From positions 1 through 64,000 of the forward strand of contig JABWCN010000020.1 in assembly GCA_013359135.1 (NCBI GenBank): DNA of 64,000 nucleotides, read 5' to 3'. Shown piece by piece: positions 7,920 to 52,590 of the stretch. The notes under the pieces are model-generated. The model made no database searches. It saw only the letters and a program-made list of their open reading frames with translations, and was not told where the DNA came from. The stretch comes from Pseudobdellovibrionaceae bacterium (lineage in GTDB: Bacteria; Bdellovibrionota; Bdellovibrionia; Bdellovibrionales; Bdellovibrionaceae). Positions within the stretch are counted from its first letter, which is position 1. Each line of letters begins with the position of its first letter. The translations under genes and the position numbers were made by a program.

Positions 7920-9412
7920 TGCTGAACGACCTTGTTAGTTTCGCAATCCGAAGCAAGTACCACCTTAGAATAATCAATATAAACATCTGATAAAATATTT
8001 GGTTTAAAATTCTGAACGCATTTAGAAACCCAATAGTTCGCCCTTGGATGAAACAGATTAACCGTTACAGCAGACTCTTCAATAAGTCTTAAAGCTTCCT
8101 TGTAATAGGTCTCTCTCTGCTTTCTGTCTTGTGTGGCTCGTGATGTTTTCAACAAAAGATCAATCTTTGAGTTTTTAAGACCGCTGAAATTATCTGGATT
8201 ATCAGATTCAAAATTCTTCAATAAAAAATCAGCATCTGGGTAGTCCATATTCATTGCCACAAGAAAAGCTTGGTGCAATTTTTTGCTATATCCCTCCATG
8301 AGCTGATCCCAAGGCATAAGATTAACTTCAACTTTCCAGCCTTTTGATGTCATGGCTTTTTCGATCATCTCCTTCATTTCTTGTCCGCGAGCAAGCTCAC
8401 GAGGAATTGCAATGGTGATCTTTTCTTTTGGAGGACGAATATCGCTTACTTTCAGTTCCACTTTAACTTGTGAACCAGTAAGACCATTCGGAACATAGCC
8501 ATTAGCCTTAATAGAATCGGGATAGAATGTTTTGCGAAATTCATCAACAGGTATGCTGACTTTGAATAGTTGTCTTATCTTAAGTTTATTAAATGGTGCT
8601 TTGTGTGTGTTAAGGCCGATAATCCATGTCGAAGCTACTGGACTAGAAATTCTTTGACCAAGACTAAAAATAGAATCACTTTCTGTTAGTGGCCAATTAG
8701 CCAGATCATGAATTTCGCTATTACGGGCAAGCTTTAGTGCCTCATCCTCTGTAGTTTCTTTTAGAATCATACGAGATATTTTAGGAACACCAGAGTGGTA
8801 TTTTTCAAATGCCACAAGGTTGATTTCTTTCTTCTTAGAATCGAGACTTGTAAAGCGGAATGCTCCAGAGCCAATTGGTGAACTGAAAAATTTAGGATCG
8901 GAAACTTTATTCTTTGGTAGAACTTTGGCCGTAGCTCCCGCAAGCACAGATAAAAACGGAGGGAACGGAAAATTTAACTCAATGACCAGAGTACTATCGT
9001 TTACTGAGCGAATTTCTTTAATTGAATCGTAAAACTTACGAACCGTACTTTCTGACGACAATGCCCTTTTTAGTGAAAATTCTGCATCAGCAGCCGTGAC
9101 GGGATCGCCATTGTGAAAAAAGATATTCTTTTTAAGTTTAAAAGTAAGTGTCTTTCCATCCTTACTGGATGACCACGACTCGGCCAATGCTCCCTCTATC
9201 TTAAGTGATGGTGAAAATTTCAATAGTCCATCATAAATCAAATTACCTACCGCCAGTGAAGCTGTATCGTTCATTTTAATAGGATCAAGTGAAAGTGGTA
9301 GCGAATAGATGGCCTTAACGTAAGCAGGACTGGGGCTTTGAGCATACGAAGGAGATTGGATTATAAATCCAATGGAAATAACTAAGAATAGAATTCGTCC
9401 CCCTGAAAACAT
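7916..9412 (-). CDS. family-5 extracellular solute-binding protein, sensor type
   Basis: This 498-residue protein has a signal peptide (ILFLVISIGFIIQSPSYAQS; cleavage near residue 24). The SBP_bac_5 fold (oligopeptide, nickel, opine or sugar-peptide binding) shows in the opening YSLPLSLDPIKMNDTASLAV, in GDPVTAADAEFSLKRAL, and in the C-terminal RETYYKEALRLIEESAVTV. There is no lipobox. No ABC permease or ATPase gene accompanies it. Instead it is the first gene of a 4-bp-overlap chain with a histidine kinase and a sigma54 activator. I infer a periplasmic ligand receptor for the kinase rather than a transporter part. The ligand is unknown; peptides or opine-like compounds fit the family. Confidence 0.9.
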   Translation of the reverse strand: MFSGGRILFLVISIGFIIQSPSYAQSPSPAYVKAIYSLPLSLDPIKMNDTASLAVGNLIYDGLLKFSPSLKIEGALAESWSSSKDGKTLTFKLKKNIFFHNGDPVTAADAEFSLKRALSSESTVRKFYDSIKEIRSVNDSTLVIELNFPFPPFLSVLAGATAKVLPKNKVSDPKFFSSPIGSGAFRFTSLDSKKKEINLVAFEKYHSGVPKISRMILKETTEDEALKLARNSEIHDLANWPLTESDSIFSLGQRISSPVASTWIIGLNTHKAPFNKLKIRQLFKVSIPVDEFRKTFYPDSIKANGYVPNGLTGSQVKVELKVSDIRPPKEKITIAIPRELARGQEMKEMIEKAMTSKGWKVEVNLMPWDQLMEGYSKKLHQAFLVAMNMDYPDADFLLKNFESDNPDNFSGLKNSKIDLLLKTSRATQDRKQRETYYKEALRLIEESAVTVNLFHPRANYWVSKCVQNFKPNILSDVYIDYSKVVLASDCETNKVVQQ

Positions 9413-9450
9413 TTATACCCCTTATTGGCAATTCAAGTTCTGTCCTCCTA

Positions 9451-9469
9451 ATTGCGAGTGTTGTGCCAA
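9451..9469 (-). promoter_or_regulatory. sigma54 (-24/-12) promoter of the sensor operon
   Basis: On the minus strand the sequence TTGGCACAACACTCGCAAT has GG and GC separated by exactly 10 bases, as sigma54 promoters require, and matches TGGCAC-N5-TTGC closely (TCGC for TTGC). It lies about 40 bp before the ATG at 9412, with ribosome site AGGGG or AGGAGG-like bases between. The operon encodes a sigma54 activator, which supports the call. Confidence 0.75.
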
Positions 9470-9508
9470 AACAACAGGGCTTATTTATGCCAGAGCTGAT
9501 TAAATGAC

Positions 9509-9526
9509 AAGCATAGCAATATGCTT
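9509..9526. promoter_or_regulatory. probable upstream activator site (dyad)
   Basis: The perfect 7-bp dyad AAGCATA-gcaa-TATGCTT is centred about 75 bp upstream of the start expected from the -24/-12 promoter. That is a usual place for an NtrC-type enhancer-binding protein. The response regulator encoded in the operon has a Fis-type HTH that could bind such a dyad. There is no second copy in the next 100 bp, although NtrC-like activators often use two. Confidence 0.5.
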
Positions 9527-9628
9527 AATTTTTTCGATGGGTTATTTGTTTTTATCTGAATTACAAAGCTGAAAATCGTGAAAGTATTACATAGGTGCCG
9601 TGGTCACTTTGGCTCCACATCCGTGAGA

Positions 9629-9652
9629 GAGTCTCTCAAAAATGAGAGACTC
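9629..9652. terminator. hairpin downstream of merA, with GTCTCTCA motif
   Basis: The arms GAGTCTCTCA and TGAGAGACTC form a perfect 10-bp stem with an AAAA loop. The hairpin lies 18 bp beyond the merA stop. No T-run follows on either strand, so it is not a classical intrinsic terminator. The GTCTCTCA arm recurs on the other side of the mer cassette (12228-12268), so the hairpin may instead belong to the boundary of that cassette. Confidence 0.5.
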
Positions 9653-9669
9653 ATACTCGCATCGACAAA

Positions 9670-11088
9670 TCAACTGGCACAACAACTAAGAGACTTTACA
9701 TCTTTATCAAAAGCTTGGACCGCAAGTTTTATTCCCTCTGAAAGGGTAAGATAAGGATGAAGAGTTTTGCCGACTTCCGAAAGTGGAATATTATATTTCA
9801 TTATTAAACTAAGCTCCATCAAAAGCTCAGATCCTTCAGAGGCAACAATTCGTGCACCAATAAGTTGATCCGTTCCGGTTCGTCGTAACAACTTAATAAA
9901 CCCCCTCGTGTCTCGTGCTGCAATCGAACGAGGTACGTTATCTAAGGTAAGTGTAGAAACATCGTATTCAATATTATTTGCTTTTGCCTGTGCTTCGCTA
10001 ACTCCCACTCCGCAAACTTGTGGATCAGTAAATATTACCCACGGGACAATGTTAAGATCAGATTTTCTTCTATTTCCTAAAATTGCATTTTCAGCAGCCA
10101 GAATGCCCTCGTAGGCCGCAACATAAACTAGTGCAGGAGTTGGAGTCACATCGCCTGCCGCGTAGATACTTGCGATGTTGGTTTGTCCATATTCGTTAAT
10201 CAATATATTTCCGTTTTTATCAATTTGAACGCCAGCACTTTCAAGACTGAGGCCGTTAGTATTTGCCTTTCTGCCAGTTGCAAATAAAATTTTAGAGAAG
10301 CTCTTTTCAATTTGCTCTTCATGCTTATGCATAAGCACCTTGACACCATCTGGTTGAGCTTGGACTTTAACAAGAGAAGTATGGTTTAAAATTTCAATTC
10401 CCTCTGAGCGTAGATAGTCTGTCATATATTTTGAAACTTCATCATCTTCTTGGAAGAGAATTTCACTTCTTTGAATGATAGTTACCTTAGAGCCTAATCT
10501 GGAAAACATTTGCGCAATTTCCAATGCAATATAACCACCTCCAACAACCGCAAGAGTTTCTGGCAATACATCTAATTCAAAGGCTTCCTTGCTCGTCAGA
10601 TAAGAAATTTTATCAATACCTTCGACAGGAGGGATGACCGCGTGACTTCCAGTAGCGATAATAATTTTTTCTGCACTTACAATCTTGCCATCAACTTTAA
10701 GGCGATTGGCATCTTGAAATTGAGCATGCCCCTGCATGAATGAGATTTTATTATATTGTTCTAATACCGACTGGTATTTTGCCTTCTGCAAAGACTCAAC
10801 CAATGCTTGCTTCTCATTTATCAGCATCTCAAAATCTAACTTTGCAGGCCCTGAACTAAGGCCCTTAAAATTAAAATGCTCCGCCTTGTGTTTTGCTTCT
10901 GCTGCGCGAATGAGTGTCTTTGATGGAACACAACCAAAATTCACACATGTTCCACCTAACTCTGACTTTTCAATCATCAATACAGTCTTATTAAGCTCAG
11001 AGGCCTTAATTGCTGCGGCAAATGCTGCTGACCCACTTCCTACAATGGCCAAGTCATAATCAAATTCGTGTGTTATACAACAGTCCAT
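9670..11088 (-). CDS. merA: mercuric reductase MerA
   Basis: This flavin- and NADPH-dependent enzyme reduces cytoplasmic Hg(II) to volatile Hg(0). The 472-residue protein shows the FAD-binding LAIVGSGSAAFAAAIKA, the redox-active disulfide GGTCVNFGCVPSK, the NADPH-binding LAVVGGGYIALEIAQMFSRL, and the C-terminal vicinal cysteine pair SCCAS that hands mercury to the active site. The C-terminal pair separates it from lipoamide dehydrogenase. It lacks the N-terminal heavy-metal domain (NmerA) found in longer MerA proteins and starts almost directly with the FAD domain, although MDCCITHE carries an N-terminal CC. It is the last gene of merT-merP-merA, starting 3 bp after merP. Confidence 0.95.
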   Translation of the reverse strand: MDCCITHEFDYDLAIVGSGSAAFAAAIKASELNKTVLMIEKSELGGTCVNFGCVPSKTLIRAAEAKHKAEHFNFKGLSSGPAKLDFEMLINEKQALVESLQKAKYQSVLEQYNKISFMQGHAQFQDANRLKVDGKIVSAEKIIIATGSHAVIPPVEGIDKISYLTSKEAFELDVLPETLAVVGGGYIALEIAQMFSRLGSKVTIIQRSEILFQEDDEVSKYMTDYLRSEGIEILNHTSLVKVQAQPDGVKVLMHKHEEQIEKSFSKILFATGRKANTNGLSLESAGVQIDKNGNILINEYGQTNIASIYAAGDVTPTPALVYVAAYEGILAAENAILGNRRKSDLNIVPWVIFTDPQVCGVGVSEAQAKANNIEYDVSTLTLDNVPRSIAARDTRGFIKLLRRTGTDQLIGARIVASEGSELLMELSLIMKYNIPLSEVGKTLHPYLTLSEGIKLAVQAFDKDVKSLSCCAS

Positions 11089-11091
11089 TTT

Positions 11092-11379
11092 TTATCCTTT
11101 GTCACATTGTTTAGAGGTAGCTTTATAGCCTACAGAATCTATTTTATTTTTAATTTCATCAGATGAAGTAAGGGCGTCGTCATATTTTATAACAGCACTT
11201 TTTTCATCCAGTGAGACTTGAACATCCTTAATTCCTTTTAGCTTTTTGATCGCTGCTTTTGTCGTCACTGTGCAGGTAGCACAAGTCATTCCCTCAACAC
11301 TAAAACAAGCATTTCTAGTTTCAGCTAAAGCTATTTGAGAAAACCCAATTAACATTACAATGATTCCTAAATTTTTCAT
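11092..11379 (-). CDS. merP: periplasmic mercury-binding protein MerP
   Basis: This 95-residue protein has a signal peptide (MKNLGIIVMLIGFSQIALAE) followed by one heavy-metal-associated domain with the ligand motif GMTCATCT at about residues 30-37. MerP binds Hg(II) in the periplasm and passes it to MerT. It lies 26 bp downstream of merT and 3 bp upstream of merA. A possible extra C-terminal cysteine (KQCDKG) is unusual but small. The ribosome site AAGGGG precedes the ATG. Confidence 0.92.
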   Translation of the reverse strand: MKNLGIIVMLIGFSQIALAETRNACFSVEGMTCATCTVTTKAAIKKLKGIKDVQVSLDEKSAVIKYDDALTSSDEIKNKIDSVGYKATSKQCDKG

Positions 11380-24422: not shown

Positions 24423-26136
24423 AATTGGAATTTATGTTCGTGTCAGTACAGAGGAGCAGGCGCAGGTTGCTGATGGCTCAATCGAAAGCCAGCAACACCG
24501 AATCAATGGCTTTATTGACATCAAAAAACACCAAGAAAAAGGATGGGGAAAGGTCGTTGAAACCTATATTGATGATGGCTATTCCGCAGGAAGCACCAAC
24601 CGCCCTGCTTATCAACGAATGATTCGTGATCTTAAAACTGGTAAAATCAATTTAATCTTGGTGACAGATTTATCACGTCTATCGCGTAACATATCTGACT
24701 TTTGTGATCTCTATAAAGACTTCGGAAAGTACAAAGCAAATTTTCTTTCAATCAAAGAGCAATTCGATACAAGTACACCTATTGGCGAAATGATGGTTTT
24801 CAACATGGTTAATCTTGCTCAGTTTGAAAGAAAACAAACATCCGAAAGAATCTCAATGAACTTCCATTCACGGGCCATGCGTGGTCTTGTGAATGGTGGA
24901 AGTCCTTTGCTAGGCTATGACCGTGATCCATCAAATCCAGGAAAAAGAATTGTAAATGAAGATGAAGCCGAATTGGTTAAAAAGATTTTCCGTATGTACG
25001 ATGAAGGTCAAAGCCAGAATGCTGTTGCAGATCAGCTCACGAAAGATTGTGAGAAAAGAAAAGATTTGGGAAGTAAGAAATATCGCCACATCAAAGATGG
25101 TCGATGGACATTAAATGCTATTCAAAACATCCTAAAGAATTATGCCTACATTGGAAAACGTGAAGTGAATGTTGGCAATAAAAATGAAAAGCAAGAGTAT
25201 CTCAAGGCTTGGCAACAATACCAAATTGTTCCTGCTGCATGGGATGCGATTATTGACGAGAAGCTTTTTGCCCGTGTTCAGAAAAGAATGACAGAAGCTC
25301 ATCATAAGGAAAGAAAGCGTTTTGATGATGGCGAAAGACGCGCCTTTCTTGTCTCTGGGAGCATTAGGTGTGGCCATTGCGGAATGGCCTTAATTGGTCA
25401 GTCTGCTCACGGAAAAACACAAGTTCACCGCTACTACGGTCACAGACAAGTTGTTGGAGAAAAAATCGCTTGTCCAATTAAGCGTTTTCCGGCTGTTGAA
25501 ATTGAGACCGCAATTCTTCGACACTTGGATACAGTTTTGAGTGAACCTGGCTATCTTGATCAAATTGAACGCAATATTGAAAAAAGTGCTGGCGTAGATA
25601 AGAAAGCTACGAAACACAAATTCGACTCACTTCAAAAGTCGATTGAAAAAACGGAACGAGAAATTGAATCTATCTTTAAGCTCGTTACAAATATGGGGTC
25701 TGGCACGGCAGGTGCTGATCTTATCCAAGACAAACTACAAACGCTGGCAGAAAAAAAGAAGACATTGGAACAAGAGCTTAATCTTGTGATCCAAGCAGAG
25801 GAAAGTGCTGGCCAAGTTGAAACAGCAAAAAGACATATTGAGGCAAATGCTAAGGCCGTTAAGCTATCGCTTAAAAAGGCAAAGCCCCACTTACAGAAAA
25901 AACTTTTGGGTGCGCTTTTTCAGCAATTAGTTGCGACCGACACTGGCATTAAAGTCTTTTACCATTTGGCAGAATCTAAAAATTTAATTGGGAATTTAGT
26001 AAAAACAAAAAAGCCATCGGAGAAAAACTCCGATGGCGATTCTATTTCATCGAGCTGGAGAACAAGCCAAACCCTTGGATTTTTTTCGTCCAAGAGTTCG
26101 CCTATCCATTGTGTTGGTGGAGGCGGGGGGAATTGA
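24412..26136 (+). CDS. large serine recombinase, integrase of the element
   Basis: This 574-residue recombinase has a resolvase-type catalytic domain (IGIYVRVSTEEQ, nucleophile Ser12; LVTDLSRLSRN), a recombinase domain (about 165-270) and a zinc ribbon (IRCGHCGMALIG … ACPIKRFP). A long coiled coil follows (about 395-480). These are the parts of a large serine integrase. The final ~45 residues after VKTKK are encoded by what appears to be host DNA: the ssrA terminator, spacer, and the last 22 bp of tmRNA, ending CVGGGGGN. The native integrase stop was therefore probably lost or changed at the attachment junction. The protein may be active regardless, because the C-terminal tail lies beyond the known domains. 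Confidence 0.9.
   Translation: MQHKIGIYVRVSTEEQAQVADGSIESQQHRINGFIDIKKHQEKGWGKVVETYIDDGYSAGSTNRPAYQRMIRDLKTGKINLILVTDLSRLSRNISDFCDLYKDFGKYKANFLSIKEQFDTSTPIGEMMVFNMVNLAQFERKQTSERISMNFHSRAMRGLVNGGSPLLGYDRDPSNPGKRIVNEDEAELVKKIFRMYDEGQSQNAVADQLTKDCEKRKDLGSKKYRHIKDGRWTLNAIQNILKNYAYIGKREVNVGNKNEKQEYLKAWQQYQIVPAAWDAIIDEKLFARVQKRMTEAHHKERKRFDDGERRAFLVSGSIRCGHCGMALIGQSAHGKTQVHRYYGHRQVVGEKIACPIKRFPAVEIETAILRHLDTVLSEPGYLDQIERNIEKSAGVDKKATKHKFDSLQKSIEKTEREIESIFKLVTNMGSGTAGADLIQDKLQTLAEKKKTLEQELNLVIQAEESAGQVETAKRHIEANAKAVKLSLKKAKPHLQKKLLGALFQQLVATDTGIKVFYHLAESKNLIGNLVKTKKPSEKNSDGDSISSSWRTSQTLGFFSSKSSPIHCVGGGGGN
26001..26037 (-). terminator. intrinsic terminator of ssrA
   Basis: Read on the minus strand, GCCATCGGAG-TTTTT-CTCCGATGGC forms a perfect 10-bp stem followed by TTTTTTGTTTTT. 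The U-run is on the minus side only, so it serves the minus-strand tmRNA gene 78 bp upstream. It lies inside the 3' end of the recombinase frame. Confidence 0.85.
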
Positions 26137-26467
26137 ACCCCCGTCCGCAAGTGATCCACGAAAAGGCGCTACATACTTAGTCTTTGTTTTTAGTTTGACC
26201 ATCAGACTTCCAAAGACAAAATTCCAAAGGTCACTCCTCCAGTTTATTTAGGTTGGTGCCCTGGAGAAAACAACACGCAACCGGTACGGCATTAATGACA
26301 GTCTATTAGCTCAACACCGTCGATTCAGCTAGAGACCGTGGCAGAACTAAGCTGCCATTGCTACGTTTACGTCAGCAATTAAAAGTTTGCACCTTTTTAT
26401 CGAGGTCCTTGTGCGCCCCGGTATGCTCCCTTTGCTTCAGCGCCCACGTCGAAGCCGTGTCGCCCCC
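26115..26467 (-). ncRNA. ssrA: transfer-messenger RNA (tmRNA)
   Basis: tmRNA rescues stalled ribosomes and tags nascent proteins. The 353-nt gene begins GGGGGCGACACGGCTTCGAC and ends with the T-arm GGGGGTTCAATTCCCCC and acceptor …CGCCTCCACCA. The 5' GGGGGCG pairs with CGCCTCC in a 7-bp acceptor stem. The reading frame GCT-GAC-GTA-AAC-GTA-GCA-ATG-GCA-GCT-TAG gives a tag ADVNVAMAA (plus the charged Ala), ending in the usual hydrophobic AA. The terminator is at 26001-26037. The conjugative element sits immediately downstream of this gene. Confidence 0.96.
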
Positions 26468-43252: not shown

Positions 43253-44556
43253 TTATTCGATGGCTAACTTAAAAACCTCTCTAATTTTTGATGTAGTTAC
43301 TGTCTTTTCTACTGAGTATTTTGCTGAGTTCAAGATCTTCAATAAATTTCCATCCTTATTGTCAAGATTAGCAACAGAAGGAGAAAATAAAAAAGTCGCT
43401 CCACTAATAGTATCTGTATCAGACATTCCAATACTTGAAATCATTAAATCATATTCAGACTGTTCCCAATTATTTGGCATTGCCAAAAAAGGTCCTTCTT
43501 TAAAATCATTTTCATATCCAATTTTTTCAGCATTTTTTTAACCATTCTGTATCACCAACATCTGAACGCGGAGTTGCCCAAGCTAAAGGTCTTTTAAAAT
43601 TAACTTTTTTTAAATTTTTTTAAAGATTAAAAATAAAATTCTGCCAATTTATATCCGAAAGTCTTCCAACCAAAACAAATTGTGGAATTTGATCGGTCCT
43701 ATATTTTGCATGAAATATCGGCAAATTGGCTTTATAAAGTCTAAATTAAAACTCCAACCGAGATGCTTTATTCTTAAATGCCTCCCTGTTCAGGTTTGGA
43801 ATCAAAAACTAATTCCATTTAGTCGTGTTGCAAGAAAATTTAAATCATTTTCAAGTCTTTTTAAGAAATTTGTCATTTCCCAATTTCTTATTGTTGCAAA
43901 ACAATGTTTATCATTAAACATTGTTTTAACTTGCTCCAGATTAATTTTTTTCTCAGGTGGAAAATACTGAATATTCCAATTCAGCTGACCTTCCTGAAAA
44001 AGATAGTGATTTATATTTGGTTTAAATACTATTGGTTCTTTTTCCATCGAAGTTAAAGAGCTAGATTTGTATATACGGCCCACGATTTCTTTTCCAATCT
44101 ATTTGTAGCTCCGAAAAACCTGGAAGATTCACCCAAAGTTTATCAAGTATAATAACTGTATCAGCCATTACCAGTGGATCAAGTATTGCCCCAGCATCAC
44201 TTTCAGTTTCAATTTTTAAAGTTGTATCATCTAAAACGACTATATTGTCAGCAGTTTTAATTTGAGCAGACAAATTTGAATGACTGGTCTGTTTTTTTGC
44301 TAATAGCCGCCTTAAACTCTGAGCTACTTCTTCAGCATCATAAAGCCCCTGTCGAAGATAACAAATTATCTCTTTCCGATTATTTGAGATTTCCCAAGAA
44401 CTTCCTAATCCACCTACAATATTTTGATGATCATCTTTTCGAACCAAAAAATCACCAACCTGATGAACAAACCTATACTCGGCAACAAAATTTAGTTTAT
44501 ATGGATTAGGATAGTTAAACTTGCTGAATATTAATTCAGTACCTTCCTTTTTTCAT
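43253..44556 (-). pseudogene. decayed family-5 solute-binding protein B
   Basis: The minus strand carries pieces of another SBP_bac_5 protein in successive frames. From near 44556 (ATG, then a shift in the A-run) come KLNFVAEYRFVHQVGDFLVR and NIVGGLGSSWEISNNRKEII to 44061. Next is NHYLFQEGQLNWNIQYFPPE to 43802, and a C-terminal segment SEYDLMISSIGMSDTDTISG to 43253. At least three frame changes are needed. It lies 60 bp downstream of the intact paralogue at 44617-46101 in the same direction, and it converges with decayed copy A. Confidence 0.8.
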
Positions 44557-44616: not shown

Positions 44617-46101
44617 TCAATTTTTATTCTTCCAGCCTATGGCTCTAAATTCAATTGGATCAGCAAATAAATTATAGTTGCTGAAATCAAAATTTTTATT
44701 CATTAAATACAATACACTTGAATGAGCAAAAGTAATTATAGCTGCTTCCTCGTAAATATTTTCATTTATTTGAATTACTAACTTTTCTCTTTGATGTTTG
44801 CATGGTTCATCCTCTGCTTGTAATATTAAATCTTTTATTTTATTTGATGGATCTGGAATTTTTGCACCTAAATTACTCATAAACATCATTCTTAAATCAG
44901 CAAATGGATTATGAACAAGTATCCCAGAACCTCTTACAATAAGATCAAAATCGTCATTTCTCATTCTATCAAAGGCTTTTGATCTTTCTGAGTAATGTAC
45001 AACATTGGCATCAAGACCTAAGTTTTCTATTACATTAAGTATGATCCTCTCTATTGATTTTTGTATTTTAAAATCAGAAGAAAATGGATAAAAAAGAATT
45101 TCAATTTTCTTTTTAAAGTTGATTTCTATATTGATTGGGTTATCTAACAAGTTGAATTTGACATAACCAATTCCCCCTTTAGGAATAAAAGAAGGATCCA
45201 CTTCTGATCCAGCAGAAAGGTATTCCGGATCTATTGAAATTAAGTTTAAAAATTGATCTCTGAACATTTCTCTTAAAATTTTTTTTGAAAAAGGCTCTCT
45301 CTTATAATTCAAATGTACAAAGTGCATCCGCAGAGGAGGCTCCTCAACAATTTGTATACCTTGCCGAAGAAACTCATCAAACCTCTCCTTACCAATTGCA
45401 AAGCTGTGCTCAACTGTTAAATCAACTTTTCTTTCAGATAAAAGACTGAGAACGGTATCACCCTCTTTGTAAGGCCAACTTATCCTTACTTCATCTGGAG
45501 CATTTTTAACGTTTCTAAAAACATATCTATTCTTGATTTGAATGTATCTGTCATTAGCCACACTAATTGAATATTGTCCTGAGGCAGATGAAAAAAAAGG
45601 TTCTTTCCATATACCATTGCGATCAAAACACTTAGGATGAACAATGCCATAAATGGGCTGACTAATAGTCTCAAATAGACCTAGTGGTTCTTTAATAAAT
45701 CTAAACACAAGCTGATTAACATTTTCAATGCAAATACCTCTTGAGTCTTCTCTCATCGATTTCCATTTTTGGATCTCTGGAAGAAGTGAGTTTAAAACTA
45801 AACCTTCTTCTCTAGTTAGCCATAATATTCTCTTAAAACTCATCAAGACTATTTCAGGCGTAATTAATGACCCATCATCAAATCTCAGATTTTCTTTAAG
45901 TTTAAATCTCCACTCTTTTCCTTGATCACTGACAATCCAACTTTTAGCAAGAATTCCCTCAGGATTTCCAAGAATGTGCTCAGAAACTAAAGTGGCATAA
46001 ATGTTTCTTGCTATTTGCATAACTGGAGGAGTATCTGCCTCATGAGTGTCCAGTGTTTTAATTGGCCACCAAAAACAGTATTCTAAAACTTTTTTATTCA
46101 T
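44617..46101 (-). CDS. family-5 solute-binding-like protein without signal peptide
   Basis: This 494-residue protein has the full SBP_bac_5 order: YCFWWPIKTLDTHEADTPPV (cf. the usual SLDP start), GILAKSWIVSDQGKEWRFKL, NLRFDDGSLITPEIVLMSFK, IVHPKCFD, and a C-terminal QREKLVIQINENIYEEAAII. The frame begins directly with the mature-type sequence. ATG 46101 (AAGGA ten bases before) is followed by MNKKVLEYCFWWP, with no hydrophobic leader, and no signal is seen upstream. It is therefore predicted to stay in the cytoplasm unless exported otherwise, which is unusual for the family. It is divergent from the radical SAM gene. It may be a ligand-binding regulator like the SgrR domain, or a recent N-terminal truncation. 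Confidence 0.75.
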   Translation of the reverse strand: MNKKVLEYCFWWPIKTLDTHEADTPPVMQIARNIYATLVSEHILGNPEGILAKSWIVSDQGKEWRFKLKENLRFDDGSLITPEIVLMSFKRILWLTREEGLVLNSLLPEIQKWKSMREDSRGICIENVNQLVFRFIKEPLGLFETISQPIYGIVHPKCFDRNGIWKEPFFSSASGQYSISVANDRYIQIKNRYVFRNVKNAPDEVRISWPYKEGDTVLSLLSERKVDLTVEHSFAIGKERFDEFLRQGIQIVEEPPLRMHFVHLNYKREPFSKKILREMFRDQFLNLISIDPEYLSAGSEVDPSFIPKGGIGYVKFNLLDNPINIEINFKKKIEILFYPFSSDFKIQKSIERIILNVIENLGLDANVVHYSERSKAFDRMRNDDFDLIVRGSGILVHNPFADLRMMFMSNLGAKIPDPSNKIKDLILQAEDEPCKHQREKLVIQINENIYEEAAIITFAHSSVLYLMNKNFDFSNYNLFADPIEFRAIGWKNKN

Positions 46102-46575: not shown

Positions 46576-47961
46576 ATGTATTTAACTTTTGCCAATGTGA
46601 GGTTGAAATTGCAAGAACTTAGAAATTTATCATATCCAAATTCTTTGTTTTATGAAAGTTTATATTCCAATTCTGAACTGCTATTAGACTCTGCTAAAAA
46701 GTCACTTTCTATGCATGCGAGGGATGAATATGTAAACGCCAAATTTGTTATTAAAACTATTGATAACATACTTAACAAAAGATCACCCCTTGGGCTTAAG
46801 GATTCAGATATAGCACTAATATTAGTAACCTTATTTGATTATCGCTTTACTGATGATGTTTCAAATCTCTTGATCAAATACTCAACAGTTTTAAGAAGAA
46901 AAACTTTTTCAAATTTTTTATCTACTATGGTGCCAATTGAAGTTAGCTCGTATTGCGCTTCGAATTGTAAATTTTGCGGGTGGAAATCTTCAAATAAAGA
47001 TATGATTCGTCTTAGAATTAATGACGATGGTTTTTTTGAACAGTTAAAGTACCTTGTAAATATGGGATTTACCCACATTGAAATTGCTAGTGGTGATGAC
47101 TTAGATTTTATAAAAAACAACCTTAACGATTTAATAAAAAAAATTAAGTTTTATTATCCACAAATAAGATTGTCAATTTGTCTAACGCCTTTAAGTACAA
47201 ACACTTACAATACATTGCTCAATAGCGGCTTAGATGCTGTGTTAACCTGGCAAGAAACATACAACAAAGATTTATTTAACTCATTCATTACCAGTGGTCC
47301 TAAATCGAAAGGAATAAATGACTCTATCAAGCCAGTTGTAAATGGGAATGGTTTTTTAGACAGAATGATGTCTCAGGAGCGGGCTCTAGAGTCTGGTTTG
47401 CAAGTAGGCTTGGGTGTTATGTTGGGTTTAAGCGATACTCCTGGTACAGACATTCTATCCCTAATACTTCATGGTAAATATCTAATCCAAAAGTTTTCAT
47501 CAAATATAAAACCTCTAATTATAGGAATGCCAACTTGGAATCATATTACCACTGAGAATTATGATATTAAAAATAGTGAAGTTTCTAAATTTTCTATTGA
47601 AAATTTATTTCCAGCTATAGCCAGTTTGTATTTTATTTCATTTGAAGACAAAAAAGCTTGGATATTTGCAAATTGTAGAGTGTCCATGAAAACACAAGTG
47701 AATACAATACAAGCGGCATCTGTTTTCACCTCAACAATGGTTCTTCTTGGCCCTGGGGCTTATCTAAAAAAGTCTTTGATTACTTCATCGTTTAGCCGGT
47801 ACTTCTCAAAATTTTCAAATAGCAAATCAGAAATTTCTGAGAATGAACTGCTATTAGGGGAACAATTTAAACATTATTTTTATGAACATTCCAAATACAT
47901 TGATGAATTTGAAAGACATGGCTTATCGATTTGTTCGGATGCAGATTTACTTAAAGCATAA
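46576..47961 (+). CDS. radical SAM enzyme of the ThiH/HydE/PylB-like group
   Basis: This 461-residue enzyme has an N-terminal helical region of about 110 residues, then the iron-sulfur motif SSYCASNCKFCGWKSSNK (CxxxCxxC at 127/131/134) that opens the radical SAM barrel. Barrel strands with GFTHIEIASGDD (the GGE-like SAM contact) and QVGLGVMLGLSDT follow, with a C-terminal part resembling the biotin/thiamin-synthesis-associated domain (AASVFTSTMVLLGPGAYLKK). The VPIEVSSYC lead-in resembles ThiH, HydG, HydE and PylB, enzymes that cleave or rearrange amino acids. It heads a five-gene run on the plus strand. The reaction is unknown; amino-acid lyase or mutase chemistry is the best guess. No clear ribosome site. 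Confidence 0.85.
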   Translation: MYLTFANVRLKLQELRNLSYPNSLFYESLYSNSELLLDSAKKSLSMHARDEYVNAKFVIKTIDNILNKRSPLGLKDSDIALILVTLFDYRFTDDVSNLLIKYSTVLRRKTFSNFLSTMVPIEVSSYCASNCKFCGWKSSNKDMIRLRINDDGFFEQLKYLVNMGFTHIEIASGDDLDFIKNNLNDLIKKIKFYYPQIRLSICLTPLSTNTYNTLLNSGLDAVLTWQETYNKDLFNSFITSGPKSKGINDSIKPVVNGNGFLDRMMSQERALESGLQVGLGVMLGLSDTPGTDILSLILHGKYLIQKFSSNIKPLIIGMPTWNHITTENYDIKNSEVSKFSIENLFPAIASLYFISFEDKKAWIFANCRVSMKTQVNTIQAASVFTSTMVLLGPGAYLKKSLITSSFSRYFSKFSNSKSEISENELLLGEQFKHYFYEHSKYIDEFERHGLSICSDADLLKA

Positions 47962-47975
47962 CGGAGACTTACAGT

Positions 47976-49265
47976 ATGTGGTTAGTTTTATTAGAAACGA
48001 ATCCTAACTTTGAAGATTTATTTAGATCAATAAAAAATTTGAATTTTAAAATTCTATACTTAACTACTAGTTTAGAAATATTTAAACTTGTTGAAAAGCA
48101 AGCCGACGAAGTATTGTTAATATCTAGCTATGATCATTTTGAAATTTTATCTAGATTAAAACTCTTTAAGTATTTCAATTCAATTTATGGAGTTTATGGT
48201 CTTAAAGATTGTTTTCTTCCTTTACTTTATTTTTTGAACATAAATCTAATGAATAAAAATAATTTTTATTCATTAGATTTAATTCTAAACACCAAAGATA
48301 AATTAAAAATGAGGAAACGTCTTTCACAACTTCCCTATAATCCCCATTACTCCATAGCTACAAAATCTGATTTAATTGACTTGAATGAGTATATTAATGG
48401 CATAGTACTTAAGCCAATCTTAGGCTATGGAAGTATTGGCGTTGAAAAAGTTGACGCAGCGAAAGATCTGAATGAAGCTTTTAACAGATCTCTTTCTGTT
48501 CTTAAAAAAATCAATCACTCTGTCAACTCAAAGTTATTATATGGAAAAAATTCTGAAGATATTATTTTTTCTGAAAAAGCTCTTTTAATTGAGGAAAGAA
48601 TCTTAGGGATTGAGGTAAGTGTCGAAGTCATAGCACAAAATGGCCATTTAAAAATTCTTGGTATTTGTGGAAAATCTGAGATGCAAGCTCCTTTTTTTGA
48701 GGAAGTTTCATATCAAATGCCAGCTTTATTATCGGAAACTTATAAAAAAAGAATACAAACAGCTGCTAAAGATATACTGAATGAGTTAAATTTTAAAAAT
48801 GGTATAGCTCATATGGAGTTTATAATAAATGATTCGCAAACTACTCTTCTTGATATCGGTTTGAGAATTGGCGGAAGTGGTTTAAGCCATAACTTAGTTT
48901 ATTTATCTTCTGGATTTAATCTCGTAGATTTTTCAATTCGAAACTTATTAGGTCTAGAAATAGCAATGGATATAGAGTTAACTGTTAACGACATTTCACT
49001 TCTATTTTTATTTCAAATAGAAAAAGGGGGTATTGTTGCAAATCCAATAACTAATCAGTCAATTGAAGACGAACCAGAATTTGTAACAAGCCACATTTTT
49101 ATTAAAAAGGGCGACAAATTGACTGGATATCCAGACCATTCTGGCCTTCCAGGATACGCGTTATTTAAAGTAAATAACAGAGATGACATTTCTTACAAAA
49201 GAGCAGAACAATTACTTTTAAAAAGCAAATCTTGCTACAAAGTTCAATATGAAGAATCATTTTAA
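47976..49265 (+). CDS. ATP-grasp amino-acid ligase-like enzyme
   Basis: This 429-residue protein has an N-terminal Rossmann-like part (about 1-110) and an ATP-grasp domain: NGIVLKPILGYGSIGVEKVD (P-loop-like), ALLIEERILGIEVSVEVIAQ, and a metal site region AHMEFIINDSQTTLLDIGLRIGGSG. The usual E-x-N-x-R motif is partly replaced (LDIGLRIGG), which may alter metal binding. Such enzymes join a carboxylate to an amine; relatives include PylC, BacD and carboxylate-amine ligases. GGAG nine bases upstream of ATG 47976, 14 bp after the radical SAM gene. The pair recalls PylB-PylC, but no pylD, pylS or pylT is present. Confidence 0.85.
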   Translation: MWLVLLETNPNFEDLFRSIKNLNFKILYLTTSLEIFKLVEKQADEVLLISSYDHFEILSRLKLFKYFNSIYGVYGLKDCFLPLLYFLNINLMNKNNFYSLDLILNTKDKLKMRKRLSQLPYNPHYSIATKSDLIDLNEYINGIVLKPILGYGSIGVEKVDAAKDLNEAFNRSLSVLKKINHSVNSKLLYGKNSEDIIFSEKALLIEERILGIEVSVEVIAQNGHLKILGICGKSEMQAPFFEEVSYQMPALLSETYKKRIQTAAKDILNELNFKNGIAHMEFIINDSQTTLLDIGLRIGGSGLSHNLVYLSSGFNLVDFSIRNLLGLEIAMDIELTVNDISLLFLFQIEKGGIVANPITNQSIEDEPEFVTSHIFIKKGDKLTGYPDHSGLPGYALFKVNNRDDISYKRAEQLLLKSKSCYKVQYEESF

Positions 49266-50169
49266 AGTATATTTATCGCTTATTTTTATTCCTATATTGG
49301 TTTCTTTAAGCTGGATTATTGGTGGAGACTTAGTAAAAGTTATGCCAACAGTCACGTTAACAATTGCGAGAATCGCTTTTTCAACAGTCACATTATTAAT
49401 AATGCTCTTTTTATTTAACAGAAAAGATCTCACAAATCTGCAAAATCGAATAATAAAATTAGACTGGTGGAAAGGACAACTTATTTTGACTTTAACTGGA
49501 AGAGTTTTGTATTTCATTTTATCAACTCATGCATTGAAATCAATTTCTCCACTTCAAGCAATTTTATTTAATGGACTTTTACCAATTTTTGGACTTTTTC
49601 TTGCTAGAATCTCCGGTCAAAAATTTAAAAATAAGTTAATTCCTTTTTTTTCATTCCTTACATCACTTAGCGCTATAGCCGCAATTTTTAATATCTTTAG
49701 TGGTTCTTGGATATTAAATTTAGGCATAATTGAGATGTTTTTTGCAGTATTTTTCTTTAGCTTGCATATTTCTTTATATAAAAAGTATGTGTCCAGTAAA
49801 AGCGCTACAGAAACGCTTTTTTCGCAATTTTTACTTTGTTTTTTAATATTATTACCTTTTGATTTTGATTTTATAAATCCACTTTTCCAGATTACGATTC
49901 ATGACCTAATTAAATTTTTAATTTACTCTATAGTTTGCAATCTAGCTCCTTTTTTTCTTTTGCACTATACTCTTAAATATATAAAGCCGATAAATATACA
50001 GCTCGTATGCACACTCGCACCAATCTTTGGACTTTTTTTTAATTTTCTTTACCAAAAATCTCAAATATCAAATTTATTTATTTATTTAACTTTATTAACT
50101 GTTGCGCTAATAAGTATAACAATTTTTTTAGATTTTCAATCAACTAAAGGATCTACAAATGCTTCTTAA
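49249..50169 (+). CDS. EamA/DMT-family exporter
   Basis: This 306-residue protein has ten hydrophobic segments in two EamA repeats (LSLIFIPILVSLSWIIGGDL … VTLTIARIAFSTVTLLIMLF; second repeat from about residue 155, EMFFAVFFFSLHISLYKKY). Members export amino acids, nucleosides or small metabolites. It overlaps the ATP-grasp gene by 17 bp and the following binding-protein gene by 11 bp, so expression is tightly coupled. Its place after the two enzymes suggests it exports their product. Confidence 0.88.
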   Translation: MKNHFKVYLSLIFIPILVSLSWIIGGDLVKVMPTVTLTIARIAFSTVTLLIMLFLFNRKDLTNLQNRIIKLDWWKGQLILTLTGRVLYFILSTHALKSISPLQAILFNGLLPIFGLFLARISGQKFKNKLIPFFSFLTSLSAIAAIFNIFSGSWILNLGIIEMFFAVFFFSLHISLYKKYVSSKSATETLFSQFLLCFLILLPFDFDFINPLFQITIHDLIKFLIYSIVCNLAPFFLLHYTLKYIKPINIQLVCTLAPIFGLFFNFLYQKSQISNLFIYLTLLTVALISITIFLDFQSTKGSTNAS

Positions 50170-51250
50170 TTTTTTCTTCTTCATGAGTACTGTATTTGCC
50201 TTCGAAAATTCATTAGTTGGATATGGCTCCTCTGATGCGGTTTTGCCATCAAAAAATCAAGAGCTCTTTTATTTAGGTTTTGAGTTAGCTTTACAAAAGT
50301 CTCGTCTCTCTGAAGACATAATGTCTAGGATAATCACTTCAAGTGTCAACAATGGATCTGCACTTGGTGCACAAAAAGCTGTGGAAAATTTGATTGCAAA
50401 TAAAGTAGAATTAATTGTAGGTTTCCCCACTTCTCATGAAGCACTTCTTGCTGCAAAAATTGCAAGTGCAAACAACAAATTTGCTATTTTTGCTGGAGCT
50501 GGACATGAAGATTTGGCAAAGTTTGGACCAAAAATACTTACTACCGGTGAATCAATGGATAGAAGTGTAACATCTACTTTAGCATTTATAAAAAAAAATG
50601 TTTATGGAACTAAAGGTATTGTAGTTGTTAATCCTTTTGCTGTTTTTTCACAAAATCAAGCCGACAAAATTAAGGAAATTAACTCAAAGAATTTTAAACT
50701 TAAGTTAGATTTTGCTTATTTAAACCAGAATAAAACTCTTTCAGAGGAAGACTTAAAAAAAATTGAAAAAAGTAATTTCATTTTTATTACACCATATGCA
50801 GATGAATCTGTAAAATTTTTAGAACAATTTAATAAAAATAAAATTGATTTACCAATAATAACTAATTCCTCTTGGACCACTGGTGATTTAGAATCAATTC
50901 GACGATTTTTGGTACAGCGTAAGTCTCCTATTTACAGTTCTTCTCTATGGATTAAAGGTTCTAAAGAGTCACTTACCTTTGAAAATTTAGTTAGATCAAC
51001 TTATGGTAGAGAAGCAGTAGCTGAAATTTCTTATGGATACGACTTGGGTATAATCGTAAAAAGTATCTTAACTGAATTACCCAAAAAATTCACCTCTGAT
51101 GATGTGGTCAATTTCATAAAAAATAAGAAATGTTTCTCTAATACAACTAGCGGAAAAATTTGCTTTAGTCCAAATGGTGGTCACGCCGAGAGAAAACTAT
51201 TTTTTGTCAAATTTAATAAATCAAATTTTTCAGTAATTGGAACAAACTAG
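50159..51250 (+). CDS. type-1 periplasmic binding protein, sensor type
   Basis: This 363-residue protein has a short signal peptide (MLLNFFFFMSTVFAFEN, cleavage after VFA) and the two-lobed Peripla_BP_6 fold of LivJ/AmiC-like proteins: ELFYLGFELALQKSRLSED, NKVELIVGFPTSHEALLAAK, IFAGAGHEDLAKFG, GTKGIVVVNPFAVFSQNQAD, and YGREAVAEISYGYDLGIIVK. Ligands in the family are branched-chain amino acids, amides, urea and similar compounds. No ABC permease follows; the next gene, 8 bp on, is a histidine kinase. I infer a periplasmic receptor that passes ligand status to that kinase. Confidence 0.85.
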   Translation: MLLNFFFFMSTVFAFENSLVGYGSSDAVLPSKNQELFYLGFELALQKSRLSEDIMSRIITSSVNNGSALGAQKAVENLIANKVELIVGFPTSHEALLAAKIASANNKFAIFAGAGHEDLAKFGPKILTTGESMDRSVTSTLAFIKKNVYGTKGIVVVNPFAVFSQNQADKIKEINSKNFKLKLDFAYLNQNKTLSEEDLKKIEKSNFIFITPYADESVKFLEQFNKNKIDLPIITNSSWTTGDLESIRRFLVQRKSPIYSSSLWIKGSKESLTFENLVRSTYGREAVAEISYGYDLGIIVKSILTELPKKFTSDDVVNFIKNKKCFSNTTSGKICFSPNGGHAERKLFFVKFNKSNFSVIGTN

Positions 51251-51258
51251 GATTTATT

Positions 51259-52590
51259 GTGAAACCTGCCTCAATAGTAAAAAAGTTGTTTTTAATTCAA
51301 TGCCTGCTTGCTTTGTTTTCATTAGTTTTATTAGTTGCTGGATCAAAAGTAGTCATATCTCAGCAATTAAGCTCACGAATTGAATACGAAAAAGAGTTAC
51401 TTATTCCAATTTTATCTGCAAAAGAAGACGAATGGATCGCTTGGACAATTTTAGGACTTAATCATGCAATTCAAAGTGATTTTAGTGAAATAATTAAGTC
51501 TTATCATGTTAAAAGCATTAAGACCATTTCTCGCTCTTCAAATCCAAAAGAAGTAGTTGATCAGGCTTGTATTTATATTCCCAAAAATTGGAAATCCGAT
51601 AAATCTATTTCAAACATTATCGAGGCTTGCATTGATGACACTTTTTTTAAAAATCAGTCTTTAAATGAGATGAGTCTGGTTTATTTAGGAATTTTATTTT
51701 TAGTTTCTTTTTTTCTATTCTCAGCTTTCTCTGTTTATTTAATTCACAAAGAAGTTTACTTCCCATTTAGACAGCTTCAAAAAGCCCTTGAAAACATAAC
51801 CGTGGAAGACGGGTTAGAAATTGGACACATTTCTGCATCTGGAGAAATTAAAGAACTTTTTGTATCTTTTTCAACACTTTGGAATAAGTCACAACAGTTA
51901 GAACGAGAAAGATTGCTAACTGAAGTAGCTTCTCAAGTTTCCCACGATATAAGGAGTCCTTTGAGTGTTCTGAACTTGTTGCTGTCAAACCTTGAGACTA
52001 TAACGGAAGAAAAGAAAATGATTCTTAAGTCTGCACTCAGCAGAATTAATGAAATCAGTAACGAATTACTTTGTTATAGTAAGATGAGTTCAAATAGTTT
52101 AATTAAACCAATGAAACTTGAAATTGTTTCTTTAAACGATGTTGTTAACTCTGTCGTCTCTGAAATGAAAATTTCTATCAGTGAGTATCATTCTATTCTC
52201 ATAAAATCTAATATTAATGAAAAAAACAGTTTATTCTCAAAAATTAACCCCACTGAAATGAAGCGCTTACTAGCAAATATTATAAATAACTCAATTGAGT
52301 CTTTTACCAATCAGCAGGGGGTTATTGAAATTTCTTTAAAATTGGTAGATCAAAAAATTTTACTAATTGTTAAGGATAATGGGAAAGGCATTCAGCCCGA
52401 AGTTTTAAAAAAACTTGGTATACGTGGTGTTACTTATGGGAAAAGTGGGACTAATAGTGGGACGGGACTTGGCCTTTATCATGCGATCAAAACCATTGAG
52501 CAATTTAATGGTAAAATTGACATTACAAGCTCTTTAGGTATTGGAACTTCAATTGTAATTACATTAGATAAAGCAATTAGTTCCATTTGA
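51259..52590 (+). CDS. membrane histidine kinase, orphan
   Basis: This 443-residue kinase starts at GTG 51259 (GGA eight bases upstream). A TM (about 9-30, LFLIQCLLALFSLVLLVAGS), a periplasmic domain of about 100 residues and a second TM (SLVYLGILFLVSFFLFSAFS) are followed by a HAMP-like linker. The H-box is ASQVSHDIRSPLSVLNLLLS (His near 229), the N-box is LANIINNSIESF, the G1 box is VKDNGKGIQPEV and the G2 box is GTGLGLYHAI. No response regulator is encoded nearby. The short periplasmic domain fits interaction with the neighbouring binding protein. Last gene of the cluster. Confidence 0.92.
   Translation: MKPASIVKKLFLIQCLLALFSLVLLVAGSKVVISQQLSSRIEYEKELLIPILSAKEDEWIAWTILGLNHAIQSDFSEIIKSYHVKSIKTISRSSNPKEVVDQACIYIPKNWKSDKSISNIIEACIDDTFFKNQSLNEMSLVYLGILFLVSFFLFSAFSVYLIHKEVYFPFRQLQKALENITVEDGLEIGHISASGEIKELFVSFSTLWNKSQQLERERLLTEVASQVSHDIRSPLSVLNLLLSNLETITEEKKMILKSALSRINEISNELLCYSKMSSNSLIKPMKLEIVSLNDVVNSVVSEMKISISEYHSILIKSNINEKNSLFSKINPTEMKRLLANIINNSIESFTNQQGVIEISLKLVDQKILLIVKDNGKGIQPEVLKKLGIRGVTYGKSGTNSGTGLGLYHAIKTIEQFNGKIDITSSLGIGTSIVITLDKAISSI

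Follow-up and report, generated by a model that had tools for sequence, protein, structure and literature searches.

Pairs of a periplasmic substrate-binding protein (SBP) and a sensor histidine kinase (HK) are known from LuxP-LuxQ, which works with LuxS, and from TorT-TorS; the ligand of LuxP-LuxQ is made by the cells themselves. The AfsA family makes gamma-butyrolactone signals in Streptomyces, and the classical receptors for these signals are cytosolic TetR-type proteins. In this study, a five-gene operon of a Pseudobdellovibrionaceae bacterium was analyzed, which encodes a radical SAM (rSAM) enzyme, an ATP-grasp ligase, an EamA-type exporter, an SBP, and an HK. The operon is located at positions 46576-52590 of the window, that is, the whole analyzed stretch of 64,000 nucleotides from contig JABWCN010000020.1. 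We consider it probable that this operon encodes a make-export-sense loop, and that its compound is a self-made signal.

SBP-HK signalling and the enzyme folds of the operon are already known. The parts of the open-access literature that were covered, outside of which most subscription journals lie, contained nothing linking the pair of rSAM enzyme and L-amino acid ligase to a histidine-kinase signal. Within the same scope, no description of such a system was found in the Bdellovibrio literature, and neither the SBP subfamily nor its exchangeable synthases were described.

Organization of the five-gene module

The window lies within one contig of the 3.84-Mb genome. An earlier note, made from the sequence alone, had described five tightly spaced or overlapping co-directional genes in AT-rich DNA. 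This description was confirmed: all five genes are on the plus strand, the successive gaps between the open reading frames (ORFs) are +14, -17, -11, and +8 bp, and the GC content is 0.303 in the module compared to 0.365 in the window.

The protein families named in that note were also upheld. The rSAM enzyme (46576-47961, 461 aa) carries the CX3CX2C motif at C127/C131/C134 in a ThiH/HydG-like full barrel and is a probable amino-acid-modifying enzyme; its score for the Pfam Radical_SAM family was 21.2 bits, under the cut-off of 29.5. The ATP-grasp ligase (47976-49265, 429 aa), whose nearest relatives are L-amino acid (dipeptide) ligases, matched ATP-grasp_4 with 76.8 bits (cut-off 27). The EamA/DMT exporter (49249-50169, 306 aa) matched EamA in two domains with 61.7 bits (cut-off 28.2), and its gene overlaps the ligase gene by 17 bp and the SBP gene by 11 bp. 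The SBP (50159-51250, 363 aa) is a type-1 periplasmic binding protein and belongs to the class for branched-chain amino acids (Peripla_BP_6, 46.9 bits, cut-off 31.7). According to the ORF list and the Pfam matches of the window, no permease gene adjoins it besides EamA. The HK (51259-52590, 443 aa) has two transmembrane (TM) segments and no receiver domain, and matched HATPase_c with 66.6 bits (cut-off 26.4) as well as HisKA.

Recurrence of the gene set

A neighbourhood search was performed for the joint recurrence of the five genes, as the earlier note had suggested. All five were found in identical order in locus L022, and partial sets were found in three further loci. L032 (Bdellovibrionaceae bacterium UBA1609) contains MFS, second ATP-grasp, rSAM, ligase, SBP, and HK genes, and L028 contains rSAM, ligase, SBP, and HK genes. 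L107 belongs to another phylum-level group that was searched separately; it contains rSAM, ligase, and SBP genes before the contig ends. In addition, the rSAM and ligase genes stand at a contig end in L025. The rSAM-ligase-SBP trio was contiguous in five genomes (window, L022, L032, L028, and L107). These come from three phylum-level groups that were searched separately, and the SBPs of the others are only 37-49% identical to that of the window. An EamA homologue occupies the equivalent place in L022 (36%) and L050 (35%). Since the set recurs in order although the genome contains no more than 6 EamA genes and a single ATP-grasp_4 gene above the cut-off, the association of the five genes exceeds chance.

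Close homologues of the rSAM enzyme were present in 5 of the 369 genomes of the phylum, window included, and weaker matches were general family members. A single-sequence scan of genome contigs gave no match, whereas a profile scan of species genomes found more homologues, all of them lacking the sensor pair, in Roseibium, Bradyrhizobium, Evansella, a cyanobacterium, and others. A search for carriage of the rSAM gene on plasmids or phages gave only weak partial thiH/hydG-type matches with less than 30% identity.

The Evansella homologue (L027, 4953-14289) lies amid genes for an Ldh_2/PEP-mutase/methyltransferase fusion, a class-III aminotransferase, a Cys/Met pyridoxal-phosphate (PLP) enzyme, and a GATase, in a biosynthetic-looking setting. 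In Roseibium (L023/L024, about 8200-11350), the homologue follows genes that by eye resemble arsC and the gene of an arsH-type flavin mononucleotide (FMN) reductase, the FMN reductase being assigned by Pfam. In the cyanobacterium Plectonema (L026, 9941-13183), a GCS2-type glutamate-cysteine-ligase-like gene, which represents another class of amino-acid ligase, comes after it, and a MATE exporter gene lies nearby on the opposite strand. In L020 (604-1494) and L021 (2090-3004), where the homologue is truncated or lies at a contig edge, the gene behind it is convergent and encodes a protein that matches V4R weakly; this protein might serve in the cytosol as an alternative receptor for what the rSAM enzyme makes.

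Binding protein and histidine kinase as the conserved core

The SBP has a short, hydrophobic N-terminus, probably a signal sequence. Its structural model, with a predicted local distance difference test (pLDDT) score of 81.4, was nearest to LivK (3td9, Z 34.4) and LivJ (4gnr, Z 33.2). In the HK, hydrophobic segments at residues 10-28 and 144-162 enclose about 115 residues as a periplasmic domain, and the H-box reads SHDIRSP. The TM spacing was preserved in 11 of 11 homologues.

Strong profile matches to the SBP subfamily were present in 11 of the 369 genomes of the phylum, with a clear score gap to other type-1 SBPs. The profile of the HK sensor domain alone recovered the identical 11 genomes and no others. 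Because both profiles were built mostly from these 11 members, their recovery was expected; what is informative is that no orphan SBP or sensor was found in the remaining 358 genomes, and that two members outside the sensor profile still matched it (G031, 4e-21; G409, 6e-27). Across all groups, 13 of 15 SBP loci contain an HK gene; one of the other two lies at a contig edge (L107) and the other is distant (L108). In L055, the HK gene is in the gene run of the SBP and not adjacent to it.

The 19 loci with the next-nearest SBPs served as a control and were read by eye: 15 have an adjoining LivH-like permease gene, 3 an HK-like gene, and 1 was unjudgeable. By the same reading, none of the subfamily loci read had a LivH-like gene beside the SBP gene. 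The earlier note had named an SBP found with liv permease genes elsewhere as a finding that would speak against its idea; this was seen mostly in the nearest outgroup and not in the subfamily. The subfamily thus departs from canonical liv uptake, in which the SBP gene stands with LivH/LivM permease genes. It has the LuxPQ-like arrangement of a permease-less SBP gene beside a two-TM HK gene as a conserved pair, with the exception of L108. The SBP and HK are the best-conserved unit and form the core of a wider family.

Two further loci are of note. In L054 (8080-9314), two transposase-like ORFs have inserted as a pair into the SBP gene and split it, which suggests recent loss of the sensor. The SBP-HK pair of L069 (1384-3901), which is more distant, stands behind a gene resembling, by eye, that of a PLP-dependent amino-acid decarboxylase, possibly a further type of synthase.

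Exchangeable enzymes beside the sensing pair

The genes accompanying the SBP-HK pair varied among loci. A ligase and EamA were found in L050, and hydrolases with a ligase in L054. L055 and L057 contain an O-methyltransferase, an aromatic amino acid hydroxylase, and LysE. An O-methyltransferase was present in L052, and in L053 together with EamA and a 2-oxoglutarate oxygenase nearby. L056 contains a thiamine pyrophosphate (TPP) enzyme.

L104, from another group, was found by the SBP profile alone. It contains, in tight order, genes for an AfsA-domain protein (PF03756, 5.8e-13), a CMD protein, the SBP, and a hybrid HK, so that the SBP gene is the second gene after that of the AfsA homologue; genes for HAD hydrolases and an OYE-type oxidoreductase lie further upstream. 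Sigma-54 regulators were found within the SBP-HK gene run in L057 and L052, and several members have an HK with a fused receiver.

The type of upstream enzyme was compared with the SBP tree. Ligases stood at 6/8 versus 0/4 and O-methyltransferases at 0/8 versus 4/4, a suggestive pattern that was not used as evidence because it is not independent of descent and the tree is weakly supported. Related ABC-transporter-like proteins are encoded near the module in L050 (1760-4553) and L104 (2145-3500); in L050, the gene adjoins one for a ryptide-type radical SAM/SPASM maturase-like protein.

Radical SAM enzyme and ligase

The cysteines C127, C131, and C134 were invariant in the family alignment of 13 rSAM homologues. 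The AlphaFold model (pLDDT 84.7) was closest to ThiH (7pd2; Z 41.3, root-mean-square deviation 2.3, 362 residues aligned), followed by HydG (4rtb, Z 39.3) and then NosL, HydE, and PylB. The full-length ThiH/HydG/NosL-type fold was present, with its full barrel, the CX3CX2C motif, and the invariant substrate-binding Arg; QExY and GPK motifs are shared with HydG and partly with ThiH. The NCBIfam scores were far under the cut-offs: 105.9 of 380 bits for thiH (TIGR02351), 64.7 of 312 bits for HydG (TIGR03955), and 51.4 of 348 bits for PylB. The earlier note had called the enzyme ThiH/PylB-like; the likeness to ThiH held, whereas PylB ranked behind ThiH and HydG and is not its nearest relative.

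In ThiH, R300 touches the amino and carboxyl groups of the substrate, and the phenolate of tyrosine is bound by T299, S318, S321, and R306 (TcThiH numbering, PMC9046217). By sequence alignment, not superposition, R300 corresponds to the invariant R368, and the four phenolate residues correspond to C367, S386, V389, and Q374, so that S318 alone is kept. The position of ThiH E158 is taken by C202 in the sequence alignment, and the HydG C-terminal cluster domain is absent. With three of four phenolate residues changed and the equivalog cut-offs missed, a ThiH/HydG-type tyrosine lyase was rejected. From these residues, an amino acid is a plausible substrate, and an amino acid other than tyrosine is likely, because the Arg is kept while three of the four phenolate residues are lost.

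The ligase profile found the L-amino acid ligase BL00235 as its best PDB match (3vot, E 4.3e-31), followed by BacD (1.5e-10), which places the ligase in sequence relationship to these enzymes. The GLRxGG region is kept among its homologues. A parallel to PylB/PylC had been drawn in the earlier note, since both cases pair an rSAM enzyme with an ATP-grasp enzyme acting on an amino acid. As a guide to the chemistry it was abandoned: the PylC equivalog score was 35.7 of 248 bits, likewise far under the cut-off, and ThiH/HydG and the L-amino acid ligases are nearer relatives. None of the curated equivalog cut-offs was reached by the enzymes, so no known pathway was assigned to them, and the unrelated pathway that would have spoken against the original idea was not found.

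Other features of the window

A divergent gene at 44617-46101 encodes a 494-aa family-5 binding-like protein with no obvious signal sequence and weak likeness to NikA (55 of 393 bits). It had been regarded as a partner of the five genes, but it was placed outside the module because no homologue occurs in the recurring loci. Downstream of it, two short minus-strand ORFs (43802-44447) look like a broken second copy of this gene, since the first matches SBP_bac_5 (30.5 bits). A tmRNA gene with the tag ADVNVAMAA is present on the minus strand at 26115-26467.

Discussion

From the observed gene anatomy and co-occurrence, we infer the following course of the loop. The rSAM enzyme would modify a non-tyrosine amino acid in a ThiH/HydG-type active site, as its fold and residues suggest, and the L-amino acid ligase would, judging by its family, couple the product to another amino acid. 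EamA, by family and position, would export the resulting compound, which the LivJ-like SBP may then bind in the periplasm. The loaded SBP would contact the short periplasmic domain of the HK and control the kinase in the manner of LuxP-LuxQ, a step suggested by their strict co-occurrence. Phosphate would then pass to a response regulator encoded elsewhere in the genome; in relatives, the fused receiver or the upstream sigma-54 regulator may take it up.

A self-made signal is probable as the compound because the SBP-HK core is constant while synthase and exporter are exchanged. The make-export-sense idea of the earlier note was strengthened by these exchangeable partners beside one sensing pair, including the AfsA homologue, while its PylB/PylC chemistry and its family-5 partner were not retained.

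The main rival is a regulated toxin or antibiotic, which we regard as rather unlikely. The enzymes would make an antimicrobial amino acid or dipeptide similar to bacilysin or a phaseolotoxin component, EamA would export it and give self-protection, and the SBP-HK pair would tune production or immunity by sensing it. The ligase profile does reach BacD of the bacilysin pathway after BL00235, and an rSAM relative lies in the biosynthetic-looking cluster of L027. The Pbo cluster, which is required for phaseolotoxin, groups a radical SAM gene, an L-amino acid ligase-like ATP-grasp gene, and MFS transporters (PMC8473136). However, genes for immunity or target protection do not recur with the module, and a signal is favoured over a toxin because the constant sensor adjoins chemically unrelated enzymes, one variant being the AfsA homologue. 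Less probable still is that the pair detects an external amino acid or peptide and just controls neighbouring metabolic genes. The SBP does have the fold of Leu/Ile/Val-binding proteins, and SBP-HK pairs for nutrients are common (PMC11113362), but the neighbours are synthases and exporters, not uptake or breakdown genes, and no liv permease was seen adjoining the subfamily. A third rival, in which the rSAM, ligase, and EamA genes form a metabolic unit that happens to adjoin an independent sensor pair and was inherited together with it, is very improbable. Although each occurs without the other, the rSAM family lacking the sensor in several phyla, the reading frames overlap at the EamA-SBP junction (-11 bp), and the trio is found in three phylum-level groups with SBPs as divergent as stated above.

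Several observations weigh against the make-export-sense loop itself. No response regulator is linked to the HK of the window, and many other organisms have members of the rSAM family without SBP-HK. In L051, the pair has no recognisable synthase beside it, and the subfamily SBP of L108 has no HK. The AfsA match in L104 holds at the domain level, with 21 of 200 bits for the ScbA/BarX equivalog. No significant correlation was found between the SBP and HK trees (Mantel r 0.13, p 0.28) or between the SBP and sensor-domain trees (Mantel r 0.28, p 0.13). Adjoining SBP and HK genes sometimes lack a functional link (PMC11113362).

The recurrence of the sensing pair beside quite different small-molecule enzymes suggests an undescribed modular signalling family. 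The synthases counted here are rSAM with dipeptide ligase, aromatic hydroxylase with O-methyltransferase, AfsA, and the TPP enzyme. The chances appear evenly balanced that LivJ-type SBP-HK pairs with such exchangeable synthases, in several phylum-level groups including that of the Bdellovibrio relatives, form an autoinducer family with many amino-acid-derived signals. If so, predatory and related bacteria would possess a set of chemical signals of their own making, for which a single type of receptor is used. A little-studied rSAM family, dipeptide ligases, and amino-acid exporters would be tied to signalling, and synthase-receptor pairs with directly identifiable ligands would be available. 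Since it is the receptor that is conserved, new signal synthases could be sought in genomes by way of it; SBP-based mining has already led to the AfsA homologue of L104.

Comparison with known systems

The ligase resembles BL00235/BacD by a profile match across most of its length and by the ATP-grasp_4 domain; unlike theirs, its gene stands behind an rSAM gene and ahead of a sensor pair. The Pbo cluster is similar in that its radical SAM gene adjoins the ligase-like gene. It differs in that its radical SAM protein is lysine-2,3-aminomutase-like and that no SBP-HK pair appears in the gene table consulted (PMC8473136); this comparison was made by description, not sequence.

Likeness to AfsA/gamma-butyrolactone signalling is given by the AfsA-domain protein in the gene run of the L104 pair, whereas the window contains no AfsA and the L104 homologue is under the equivalog cut-off. 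The module shares with LuxP-LuxQ and TorT-TorS the stand-alone SBP encoded beside a two-TM HK, the hybrid HK of several family members, and the sigma-54 regulators of some loci. In contrast to these systems, the SBP is of the LivJ/LivK class, the HK of the window has no receiver domain, and the operon itself encodes the synthase, which is exchangeable among family members.

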